Below, piece after piece: positions 25,168 through 30,279 of a stretch of DNA of 64,000 nt (its first letter is position 1; every line of letters starts with the position of its first letter). This DNA is from Bacillus gobiensis (GTDB lineage: Bacteria > Bacillota > Bacilli > Bacillales > Bacillaceae). The position numbers and the translations under genes are program-made. The stretch lies in the NCBI RefSeq assembly GCF_001278705.1, contig NZ_CP012600.1, forward strand, positions 992,190 through 1,056,189, in the 5' to 3' direction. The notes below the pieces were generated by a model. It did no database searches and was not told the origin of the DNA. It was given only the letters and a program-made list of their open reading frames with translations.

Positions 25168-26115
25168 ATGATACGAATCGTTTTCATGGGCACACCGGGT
25201 TTTTCGGTGCCGATTTTAAAAACGCTTCTTCATGACGGCTATGAGGTTGTGGCTGTAGTGACCCAGCCCGATCGACCAAAAGGAAGGAAAAAAGAGTTGA
25301 CACCGCCTCCTGTTAAAGAAGAGGCTCTCCTGCACGATATTCCGGTTTTGCAGCCTGAAAGAGTTAGAGATGAAAATGAGCTGAAAAAAATTATTGATTT
25401 ACAGCCTGATTTAATCGTTACTGCAGCATTCGGACAAATTCTTCCTAAACAGCTTCTTGATGCCCCGCGACTCGGCTGTATTAATGTTCACGCTTCTCTT
25501 TTGCCGGAGCTTCGCGGAGGTGCTCCCATTCATTATGCGATTCTGGAGGGCAAGAAAAAGACCGGGATCACAATTATGTACATGGCAGAAAAATTAGATG
25601 CCGGCGATATTCTCACTAAAGCAGAGGTTGTCATCGAAGAACAAGATACGGTCGGAACACTCCATGATAAGCTGAGCGTATCAGGTTCGCAACTTTTATC
25701 TAAAACGATCCCGGATTTAATCGAAGGAAAAATCAAGCCTGAACAGCAAGACGATACGAAAGCGACCTATGCTCCGAATATTAAAAGAGAGCAAGAGGTT
25801 ATTGATTGGTCAAAAAATGGAGATGACTTATATAACCAAATCAGAGGCCTGAATCCATGGCCTGTCGCATATACAATCTTTAATGGCAATGTGTTGAAGG
25901 TATGGAGGGCTGAAAAGCTAAAAAATGAAAATAAGAGAGAACCCGGAACAATAATCGGAGTAGATTTTGACGGGTTTGTCGTCTCTACCGGAAACGATAT
26001 CGCGTTAAAAATTACCGAACTTCAACCGTCTGGAAAAAGAAGGATGACGGGAGAAGAATTTTTGCGAGGCGCTGATTTACATATTGGAATGAAACTAGGG
26101 ATGAAAGCAAAATGA
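25168..26115 (+). CDS. fmt: Methionyl-tRNA formyltransferase
   Basis: Formylates initiator Met-tRNA. 315 residues. Starts [37 protein letters not shown] is the tRNA acceptor-binding loop; catalytic Asn-His-Asp set visible in [21 protein letters not shown] and LDAGDIL. C-terminal OB-like domain from about 205. Stop overlaps rsmB by 4 bases. Confidence 0.96.
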
Positions 26116-27455
26116 AAAAAATGAATGTAAGAGATGTTGCGTTAGATGCATTACTAAAGCTTGAACAGAATCAGGCGTACAGCAACCTTCTCCTTCAATC
26201 CGTAATTAAACAGAAGGAGATGATAAACACGGACCGCGCCCTGCTGACAGAATTGGTTTACGGAACGTTGCAAAATCAACTCGCACTTGATTTTATGCTC
26301 GCTCCATTTGTAAAGAAACCAAAAAAAGTGGATCAATGGGTTCGTAATTTATTGAGACTTTCTTTATACCAAATGGTGTATTTAGAAAAAATTCCTGATC
26401 GGGCCGTATTCTATGAAGCGGTTGAAATTGCAAAGAACAGAGGCCATAAAGGGACGGCATCCTTCGTAAACGGTGTGCTTCGTTCCATTCAACGAGAAGG
26501 AGTTCCCTCTTTTGATGATATAAAGGATCAGGTGAAACGACTTGCGATAAAAACGAGCCACCCTGAATGGCTCGTTCAAAAGTGGGTGAATTCGTATGGA
26601 TATGAGCAGACGGAAAAAATTTGCCATATTCATTTAGTGCCGCCAAAACAGACGCTTCGTGTGAATCAGCTGAAAACAGATAAAGAGACTCTTATGCAAG
26701 AATTACATGAGGAAGGGTATCAGGTTGCTGAAGGAGACTTGTCGCCCAATGCGATTAAGCTGGAAAAAGGAACGATTGCTAACAGCAGATTTTTTAAAGA
26801 AGGTTATGTGACGATTCAAGATGAAAGCTCGATGTTAGTTGCAAGAGCTCTTGGTGTAGAGGCGGGAGAAACCGTGCTGGATGCCTGTGCTGCTCCAGGT
26901 GGGAAATCAACCCATATGGCTGAAATGATGAATAACACCGGACACATTCTCTCTTTGGACCTCCATAAACATAAGATGAAATTGATCAACCAAGCTGCCG
27001 AAAGGCTTGCTCTAGATATCGTGGAAACTCGCCAAATGGATGCAAGGGAGGCTGCAATGTCACTGGCAAAGGAGAGCTTTGATAAAATTTTGGTTGATGC
27101 TCCGTGTTCCGGGTTTGGTGTTATCCGGAGAAAACCGGACGTGAAATACAGCAAAACGCCAGATGACAATGAACGTCTTGCCGAGATTCAAGCTTCTATA
27201 CTAAATAGCGTTTCGGGAACATTAAAAAAAGGTGGTACACTTGTTTACAGTACGTGTACAATGGACCCAACGGAGAACGAACAAGTAATTCATGCTTTCT
27301 TAAAGGAACATCCGGAATTTGAAGTGGATTGTGCGCTGAAGGACAGGCTTCCCAAAAAAGTTGAAAACTATTGCAATGATGGACGTATTCAGCTTCTCCC
27401 CCACTATTTTGGTACGGACGGATTTTTTATTTGCAGCATGAAAAGGAAGGTGTAA
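26112..27455 (+). CDS. rsmB: 16S rRNA cytosine-967 methyltransferase
   Basis: SAM-dependent m5C methyltransferase of the RsmB/NOL1 family. 447 residues. N-terminal NusB-like domain (1-140), SAM motif [17 protein letters not shown] near 257, and the two cysteines: VDAPCSGFG near 325 and the nucleophile in [12 protein letters not shown] near 380. It ends 3 bases before the ATG of the rlmN scar, whose ribosome site lies in the last codons of rsmB, so coupling between the two positions remains. Confidence 0.95.
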
Positions 27456-27458
27456 CAA

Positions 27459-27545
27459 ATGGGACAGTGGACGAGAAAGCAAGGCTGCGGCCGAGTGGCT
27501 GCACTTGTACAAGTGAGTGAGATACGCCAAGAAGAAATGAGGTGA
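27459..27545 (+). pseudogene. rlmN: rlmN deletion scar: start codon and C-terminal tail only
   Basis: B. subtilis-type genomes carry rlmN (about 360 codons; 23S rRNA A2503/tRNA A37 methyltransferase, radical SAM) between rsmB and prpC. Here only a 28-codon frame remains. AAGGAAGG sits 8 bases before its ATG, and the frame then reads TRKQG..RVAALVQV..IRQEEMR. This lines up with the RlmN C-terminus RREQGHDIDAACGQL..KERQxExR: R-K/R, QG, AA, Q and the final RQEEMR coincide. The radical-SAM CxxxCxxC core is gone. The TGA overlaps the prpC initiation region. Could be retained as a short coupling peptide; function as an enzyme is impossible. Confidence 0.75.
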
Positions 27546-27553
27546 AAATCATA

Positions 27554-28312
27554 TTGAATACAGTTTTTCTAACGGATAAAGGGAGAGTCCGTCCCCATAA
27601 CGAAGATGATGGCGGTATTTTCAATGGCCAAAAAGACAATTTGTTAGCTGTGGTTTCGGATGGCATGGGAGGACATCTCGCCGGTGAAGTTGCAAGCAGG
27701 ATGGCTGTGTCCACTTTAAAAGATTTTTGGGTACAAGAAGAACTGAGACCAAAAACCCCGGCTGATGCAGAGGCTTGGCTTTCTGAAAAAATCAAGACAG
27801 TCAATCAAGTCATTTACGATTACGCAGCCATCCATCCTGAATGTCAAGGGATGGGTACAACGATAGTTTGTGCGCTGTTTACCGGAAGCTTCGTTACAAT
27901 TGCTCATATCGGCGACAGCAGATGCTATCTTTTGCGCGAAGGAAGCTTGCGCCAGGTTACCGAGGACCATTCTCTCGTGAATGAGCTCGTGCGTACTGGC
28001 AGTCTGTCTAAAGAAGATGCTGAGAACCATCCGAGAAAAAATGTCATTACGAAAGCGCTTGGCACCGATCAATCTGTTGAAATTGATGTTCGTACGATTG
28101 AATTTGAAAATAATGAGCTGCTTTTATTATGCTCGGACGGATTAACAGATAAAGTCGATGAAAACGAGATAGCTGAAATTCTTAAAAATGAGATTTCCCT
28201 TGAAGAAAAAGCTTCGGTGTTAATAGATATCGCAAATCAAAATGGAGGAGAAGATAATATTACGGTGGCCATACTGGAACTTCCTTCCCAAGAAGGTGAA
28301 GCATCGTGTTAA
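27554..28312 (+). CDS. prpC: Protein phosphatase PrpC (PP2C family)
   Basis: Manganese-dependent Ser/Thr phosphatase that opposes PrkC. I prefer the TTG at 27554 (GAGGTG 9 bases upstream, and alignment with the homologue's MLTALKTDTGK start); a GTG at 27542, inside the end of the rlmN scar, is the alternative. About 252 residues. PP2C metal motifs: [55 protein letters not shown] and GGEDNITV. Overlaps prkC by 7 bases. Confidence 0.94.
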
Positions 28313-30279
28313 TCGGAAAGCGAATCAGCGGACGTTACCAAGTTCTTCGCGTTATTGGCGGGGGCGGAATGGCGAATGTTTATTTGGCCGAGGACATGAT
28401 ACTTGATCGTGAGGTAGCGATAAAAGTTCTCCGGTTTGATTTTGTGAATGATAATGATTTTATCCGTCGGTTTCGAAGGGAAGCCCAATCTGCAACAAGT
28501 CTCGACCATCCGAATATCGTAAGCATTTATGATGTAGGTGAAGAGGGCGACATTTACTACATTGTTATGGAATATGTTGAAGGCATGACCTTAAAGGAAT
28601 ACATAAAAGTAAATGGACCGCTTCATCCGCAAGAAGCAGCCCAGATTATGGAACAGATTGTTTCTGCAATGGAGCATGCGCATCAAAACCATATCGTACA
28701 CAGAGACATCAAACCCCATAACATATTAATTAATCATTTCGGTGAAGTAAAAGTAACCGATTTTGGAATTGCAATGGCTCTCAGCTCGAGTACTATCACC
28801 CATACCAATGCGGTTCTCGGATCTGTCCATTATTTGTCGCCGGAACAGGCAAGAGGCGGACTAGCTACAAAAAAATCGGATATCTATGCGCTCGGAATTG
28901 TTTTATTTGAGCTTGTGACAGGAAGGATGCCGTTTGAAGGTGAATCAGCCGTCAGCATAGCGTTAAAACATTTGCAATCCGATACGCCATCAGCAAAAAG
29001 GTGGAACCCTTTAGTCCCGCAAAGTCTGGAAAACATCATATTAAAAGCGATGGCGAAGGATCCTTTTCACCGATATAATTCTGCAGAAGAAATGGAACAG
29101 GACTTACGGTCGGCATTTGACCCGGAGCGGTTAAACGAAAATCGGTTTACGATCCCGGCAGATGATGAAATGACAAAAGCAATTCCTGTTATTAAAGATT
29201 CGCACGTTCATTCAGAAGAAACTCTAGTCCATGGACAAAAAAATCAAGCGCAGCATTCAACGGAAGGCGAAGGAGCCAATCAGAAAGAGGATCAGAAGAA
29301 ACCTAAGAAAAAGAAGAAAAAATGGCCGATTGTTTTGCTGACAATTTTTCTCATGCTGATTGCATCAGGTGTACTCGCTGTCTTCGTATATCCTTCTATA
29401 TTTTTCCCTCCGGATGTGGAGGTGCCGGATGTTTCCGGACTAGAAGTAGATGAAGCAAATAATATCCTTAAGGATAAAGGACTCGTAGTCGCGGGAGATT
29501 CGTTTAAAATTAAAGATGAAACGATTGAAGCCGGCAAGATCGTACGGACGAACCCGCAAACAGGCACCGTTGTCAAGGAAGGCAGCCAGATCCAGCTTTA
29601 TGAAAGCACAGGGAAAGAAACTGTACAATTAGACAACCTAATCGGGGAAAATATAGATCGTGCAAAAGAAACTTTGACACGCAAAGGGTTTCAGCGTATC
29701 CGGACAGAAGAAGTCAATGATGATAGTGAAGTCGGTACGATCATCGACCAGGCTCCGTCTGCTGACAGCAATGTCGTTCCTGAAGATGACGAAATTGTCT
29801 TAACAGTCAGCAAGGGACCTGAAGAGATTGAATTGCGGGATTTGCAAACCTATTCCAAACAGGCGGCAGCTGCATATTTAGATGATAACGGTTTAAAAAT
29901 GGCTGAGAAGGAAGCCCATTCAGAGGATATTGCAGAAGGACAGGTCATTGAGCAAAAGCCGGCCGCAGGGGAATCTGTGAAGCCGGGAGACGAAATTGAA
30001 TTGACATTTTCCCTTGGACCAGAGGAAAAACCGATCAAAACAGTCACTGAGGAAGTAGACATACCTTATGAGCCGGCTACACCCGGTGAGGAATTGAGTG
30101 TACAGATATCGATTGACGATGCCGAGCATAGCATATCCGATCCATATGAAACGTTCACAATTACGGAGCCGGCCAAAAGATCTATCGAATTTAAAATCGC
30201 ACCTGACCAAAAAGGGTATTATCAAGTGACAATTAACAATCGACTCGTCAGTTCGAAAACAATCGAATATCCTGAGTAA
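28306..30279 (+). CDS. prkC: Membrane Ser/Thr kinase with PASTA domains
   Basis: Eukaryotic-like kinase that senses muropeptides, signals spore germination and phosphorylates translation factors including RsgA. 657 residues, GTG start. Kinase domain 1-270: [10 protein letters not shown]-loop, Lys40, HRDIKPHN with Asp134, DFG at 152-154, and an activation loop rich in Thr (ITHT, 164-167) as in autophosphorylated homologues. Lysine-rich juxtamembrane stretch 331-339, one membrane helix about 340-363, then three PASTA repeats (about 372-580) and a short C-terminal beta domain outside the cell. Confidence 0.96.

Follow-up and report, generated by a model that had tools for sequence, protein, structure and literature searches.

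A remnant of rlmN at the putative prpC ribosome-binding site of Bacillus gobiensis, and a second, divergent RlmN elsewhere in its genome

The rsmB-prpC junction

The genome of Bacillus gobiensis is assembled as one contig of 4,597,587 bases. The window analysed here is a stretch of 64,000 nucleotides of this contig (G000:C1:992190-1056189), and all positions given for the locus are counted from its first letter. On the forward strand, rsmB (26112..27455) is an open reading frame that passes the cut-offs of the NCBIfam RsmB equivalogs and is syntenic with its counterparts in relatives. It is followed by a frame of only 28 codons (27459..27545, + strand; 87 bases) with an ATG at 27459 and the stop codon TGA at 27543-27545, and then by prpC (27554..28312, + strand), which encodes a PP2C phosphatase of the Stp1/IreP type. 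Next comes prkC (28306..30279, + strand), an open reading frame assigned by NCBIfam to a PASTA-domain Ser/Thr kinase. The most likely prpC start is the TTG at 27554, a choice based on spacing and homology that places it 8 bases after the stop of the short frame; a mechanical listing of open reading frames gives the GTG at 27542 instead. An earlier note on this DNA had described the short frame as the scar of an rlmN gene between rsmB and prpC. The coordinates it gave are exact, and the conserved fmt-rsmB-prpC-prkC order on which it relied is borne out both by synteny with relatives and by Fmt, RsmB, the Stp1/IreP-type phosphatase and the PASTA kinase, all of which score above their NCBIfam cut-offs.

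In the three congener loci that we read across the whole block (L043-L045), canonical rlmN lies between rsmB and prpC, and the remnant sits at this syntenic site. The end of rsmB in the window matches the DNA of 37 of 43 congeners at 78-85% identity, and these matches stop near the ATG of the remnant, between 27450 and 27462. The AACGQ block, with its catalytic cysteine, is absent from the frame. The 28-residue peptide has no Pfam match at E-values up to 1, and a consensus scan of 27200-27700 found neither a promoter nor a terminator. Deletion has removed canonical rlmN from the fmt-rsmB-prpC-prkC order except for its start site and its tail.

We compared the remnant with a profile of intact rlmN ends by means of an anchored score, in which the alignment is forced to end at the Shine-Dalgarno site and the site itself is excluded; L043, with a broken rlmN (G023), was left out of the profile. 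The tail scored 16.7 (z = 7.7) against the first profile of 34 rows, two of them duplicated (L044 = L012, L045 = L013), and none of 60 dinucleotide shuffles was as high. With the 32 distinct rows the score was 17.1, equalled by none of 500 shuffles. The 55 other Shine-Dalgarno-like sites of the window gave anchored scores of 5.5 or less, and the anchored score of the stretch preceding the final 17 bases was reached by none of 200 mononucleotide shuffles. The unanchored local score was reached by 1 of 60 shuffles and, when repeated, by 7 of 500, and the alignment score of the whole peptide by 31 of 2000 codon shuffles. Taken alone, the last 17 bases are matched or surpassed in score by 88 of the 127,983 17-mers of the window. 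Codons 1-21 show no significant resemblance to rlmN (117 of 2000 shuffles for protein and 226 of 2000 for DNA). Since the anchored scores are high and both the unanchored scores and those of codons 1-21 are weak, the tail is secure through position plus sequence and the middle is not. Of the proposal that both ends of the gene had been retained in one frame, the start site stands, as does the tail (0/60 and 0/500 anchored shuffles), and the middle is not significant. As judged by these comparisons, the start-codon site and the last seven to eight codons of the remnant resemble rlmN, and the middle does so weakly.

The sequence of intact genes points to a reason for the survival of the tail. 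All 32 distinct intact rlmN genes end in GAG ACG AGG TGA with no wobble change, and alternative codons are possible for threonine, arginine and stop. Moreover, each of these genes has a TTG or ATG candidate start of prpC within 3-7 bases downstream. Among 17 further intact genes from eight genera, 16 end in ACGAGGTGA and the prpC start follows 4-7 bases after the stop, a spacing calculated as the gap minus the start codon because the query lacked that codon. Altogether, GAGGTGA terminates 48 of the 49 intact rlmN genes examined. In the exception, G283, a GGTGA follows closely after the stop, which indicates that the constraint on GAGGTGA can be escaped. The last bases of rlmN are probably the Shine-Dalgarno site of prpC, which in the window would be the GAGGTGA at 27539..27545 (+ strand), including the stop codon of the remnant. 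The tail probably survives because this motif serves prpC translation. As the AACGQ block is gone from the frame, the tail looks to have been kept for its role in ribosome binding at prpC. The retained coupling to prpC that had been suggested is right in that the tail matters for prpC; what was kept is apparently a ribosome-binding site, not the end of a protein.

A second class of RlmN

RlmN is a dual-specificity methyltransferase acting on A2503 of 23S rRNA and on A37 of tRNA, and is encoded by yloN in B. subtilis and by yfgB in E. coli. The earlier note held RlmN to be lost from this genome and advised a search for any other RlmN or Cfr. This search reached no Cfr cut-off and returned a single match to TIGR00048, the RlmN equivalog, at G000:C1:3215455-3216516 on the minus strand, roughly 2.2 Mb from the old rlmN site. 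The gene is intact and encodes 354 amino acids scoring 439 bits, 149 above the cut-off of 290, so that the claim of a genome devoid of RlmN does not hold; a second, intact RlmN was the very finding that the note had named as counting against it. We refer to this protein as RlmN2, a label coined here for a second, divergent RlmN class. Neither RlmN2 nor the canonical enzyme passes the narrower RlmN models PRK14461 and PRK11194. Aligned with solved RlmN structures, RlmN2 keeps the CX3CX2C motif (C112, C116 and C119), the two catalytic cysteines (C105 and C341) and the glutamate E92, with positions counted by hand from the alignment. We take C105 and E92 to be the counterparts of C118 and E105 of RlmN and to share their roles. 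The motif and C355 of RlmN are described in one published account (PMC4689488).

On these grounds, RlmN2 is predicted to make m2A2503 and probably also tRNA m2A37. With an intact RlmN2 present, the loss of m2A2503 and tRNA m2A37 and the altered drug susceptibility that had been foreseen from the locus do not follow. A study in S. aureus reportedly dealt with RlmN inactivation and linezolid. The B. gobiensis case cautions against concluding, when rlmN is absent from its place in the B. subtilis gene order, that A2503 lacks its modification or that drug susceptibility is altered.

Relocation of the same rlmN was rejected, as the intact copy is a different class of RlmN. RlmN2 shares about 60% identity with canonical RlmN of the genus (58-63% across 43 congeners), and is 74-80% identical to the sole good RlmN match in G042, G043, G050, G051, G056 and G057, two of which (G043 and G050) have one extra weak RlmN fragment match each. 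The fragment in G043 (G043:C26:37896-38093; RlmN profile positions 285-349, 51 bits) contains one TAG, lies apart from the intact copy and is perhaps a relic. The closest named relative of RlmN2 is found in Fictibacillus gelatini (86% identity). A FastTree run that included only 10 canonical rows placed 119 second-class rows apart from them with full support; it resolved no donor, and no small supported group in it holds the B. gobiensis protein. By sequence, RlmN2 of B. gobiensis belongs to a class that supplies the sole RlmN of many other Bacillales.

Canonical-class RlmN was found in 43 of the 43 other genomes of the genus examined, and RlmN2 in none of them. One of these, the draft genome G023, has canonical rlmN in three pieces. 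At its locus L043 (G023:C13:36000-48000), fmt and rsgA are likewise split, into two matching pieces each, and for all three genes sequencing errors are likelier than decay. In the rest of the family, canonical rlmN precedes prpC in 5/5 genomes examined, with one TIGR00048 match each. When the 12 genes neighbouring rlmN2 were compared with 120 loci, just two recurred: yjiH at 3 loci and an SDR gene at 2. The loci L098 and L168 give identical identities and probably represent one species, and the third yjiH locus matches at only 38%. Eleven congeners, read with a 1.5 kb flank, have no rlmN2 beside their yjiH orthologue. SDR and yjiH genes flank rlmN2 both in B. gobiensis (L032:3937-10516) and in Heyndrickxia ginsengihumi (L098, and L168, which is probably of this species too), with rlmN2 placed differently relative to them; the resemblance may reflect a shared origin or chance.

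Recurrence in Bacillales

The second RlmN class was present in 30 of 30 genomes of 27 genera (70-84% identity), hand-picked and non-random, which we chose from 397 for weak TIGR00048 scores and a spread of genera, and which appeared to carry this class alone. Seven further genomes without canonical rlmN comprise six with the second class and one (G049) with no RlmN match. In all 37 selected genomes lacking canonical rlmN, rsmB directly precedes prpC, and 4-327 bases separate the rsmB stop from the first matched prpC residue.

We then looked for fossils in each gap, over its final 110 bases and with 60 shuffles apiece; six of the 37 junctions were excluded, five for being too short and one for having no Shine-Dalgarno match. 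A fossil was called clear when its anchored score was reached in 0/60 shuffles and z was above 7, a threshold set once the scores were known. Clear decayed rlmN 3' ends were found by this measure in 9 of the 31 testable junctions, from 8 genera (L194, L197, L199, L200, L201, L202, L204, L210 and L211). The remaining 22 hold no clear fossil, which is expected for old losses, though it lends the displacement reading no support. Four of these 22 (L081, L083, L207 and L216) have low anchored scores, of 5.3 to 9.7, yet no shuffle reached them.

Canonical rlmN is still in place in congeners of several of these genomes: in G115 for G073; in G082 for G121 and G178; in G146, G225 and G251 for G199; in G131, G186 and G211 for G237; in G193, G218 and G244 for G310; and in G038 for G421. 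Together with the genus of B. gobiensis, this gives seven genera in which both states are present, so that at least seven losses are implied, provided that each genus is one lineage and that the canonical gene is ancestral there. G038 and G041 carry both RlmN classes, and this state is the expected intermediate of a displacement. G199 has two copies of the RlmN2 class (G199:C2:325430-326491 and G199:C1:2276039-2277100; 79% and 76% identical to the B. gobiensis copy) in addition to a canonical rlmN fossil at its rsmB-prpC junction.

We suggest only tentatively, and with more doubt than belief, that the RlmN swap has run mostly in one direction and many times, that RlmN2 has a recurring advantage and that each dead 3' end has become fixed as the ribosome-binding site of prpC. 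Such an advantage, if true, might lie, for instance, in a different set of tRNA substrates, in different oxygen or metal requirements or in withstanding an inhibitor.

A separate observation concerns the genus g14 (family f14; G049, G265, G425 and G430-G436), in which TIGR00048 matched 0/10 genomes, in a search where 11 of 14 control genomes matched. A search of the g14 genomes with the RlmN2 protein, run without a positive control, likewise gave no match. In G049, whose junction lies in L080, rsmB stands directly before prpC. This genus looks like a case of true RlmN loss, and is a place to ask what the natural effect of losing m2A2503 may be.

Displacement and its alternatives

We consider it very probable that canonical rlmN of B. 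gobiensis, having become redundant to the second, divergent RlmN2 encoded at a distance of some 2.2 Mb, was cut down to a 28-codon pseudogene, and that the 3' end would have been spared because ACG AGG TGA holds the prpC Shine-Dalgarno site. Deletions into GAGGTGA would cut prpC translation, so decay would stop there, a selective cause that we infer. These final bases are found still in place in several lineages that lost the gene independently. As read from these sequences, one RlmN displaced another, and what was replaced is a gene rather than a function that was lost. The 28-codon frame presumably has no peptide function, and RlmN2 may have arrived via horizontal transfer.

One alternative concerns the origin of RlmN2. 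An ancestor might have had both enzymes, with this lineage keeping RlmN2 and its relatives the canonical one. The existence of both-copy genomes (G038 and G041) and the failure of the tree to resolve a donor or a small supported group with this copy are in keeping with such a history. We regard it as rather unlikely, since RlmN2 is absent from 43/43 congeners, the single TIGR00048 match in each of 5 other genomes of the family is canonical by identity and lies at the junction, and no rlmN2 was found beside yjiH in the 11 congeners read there. Chances are slim, too, that the 28 codons persist because they work as a leader or coupling frame for prpC. The frame is uninterrupted, comes with a ribosome-binding site and its own start codon, and stops 8 bases short of the prpC start; however, it is present in one genome only, the 3' ends that survive elsewhere usually have no open frame from a start codon (judged by eye), and short open frames can persist by chance.

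True loss of the function, with an RlmN2 that does not methylate A2503 or that modifies only tRNA or another RNA, seems improbable. The identity of only about 60% to the canonical enzyme would allow it, and the matches in 0/10 g14 genomes suggest that absence of RlmN is tolerated. Yet RlmN2 exceeds the equivalog cut-off by 149 bits with its catalytic residues kept, and the second class is the sole good RlmN match in many genomes. An assembly artefact, through collapse or mis-joining of a complete rlmN at the locus, is scarcely credible in a one-contig assembly with 100% completeness and 0.38% contamination: the remnant has diverged from the sequence of congeners, unlike a clean mis-join, and canonical rlmN is found nowhere else in the genome.

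The displacement of rlmN by RlmN2 can be viewed beside systems already known. In xenologous gene displacement, a housekeeping gene gives way to a distant homologue and its native copy disappears; a fossil lies outside the usual definition. The case of B. gobiensis is alike in having a divergent homologue of equal predicted activity, in lacking the native copy and in its relatives with both copies. It differs in the fossil of the displaced gene at the old site, and transfer is a proposal here. Events in which a distant homologue displaces a gene are known as a kind, and the interest of this one lies in its recurrence and in the shared fossil; neither RlmN displacement nor the prpC site is described among the literature matches listed. 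Replicate displacements of one translation gene can be seen at several stages, namely both copies, a long fossil, and little beyond the ribosome-binding site, and they lend themselves to studying the pace at which a redundant gene is lost from an operon and the factors that halt its deletion. In Buchnera, according to one report (PMC3164680), intergenic spacers hold decaying pseudogenes with conserved ribosome-binding sites. Both cases combine dead-gene sequence with a part that serves the next gene and is likely constrained; here, the 3' end of the same gene remains in several lineages of free-living Bacillales.

With regard to enzymes of related function, RlmN2 resembles canonical RlmN in passing TIGR00048 and keeping the catalytic residues, and differs from it in its identity, its separate and fully supported class and its gene neighbourhood. 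Cfr and ClbA are methyltransferases of C8 of A2503 in 23S rRNA. They have the radical-SAM superfamily and the target base in common with RlmN2, which scores only about half of the Cfr cut-offs (251/530, 243/468 and 243/550 bits); Cfr as the replacement was rejected accordingly. In three congeners, a second protein that we label Cfr- or ClbA-like as a guess scores 269-274 bits to TIGR00048, below its cut-off (G018:C1:509022-510023, G029:C19:53050-54057 and G032:C1:800343-801353).
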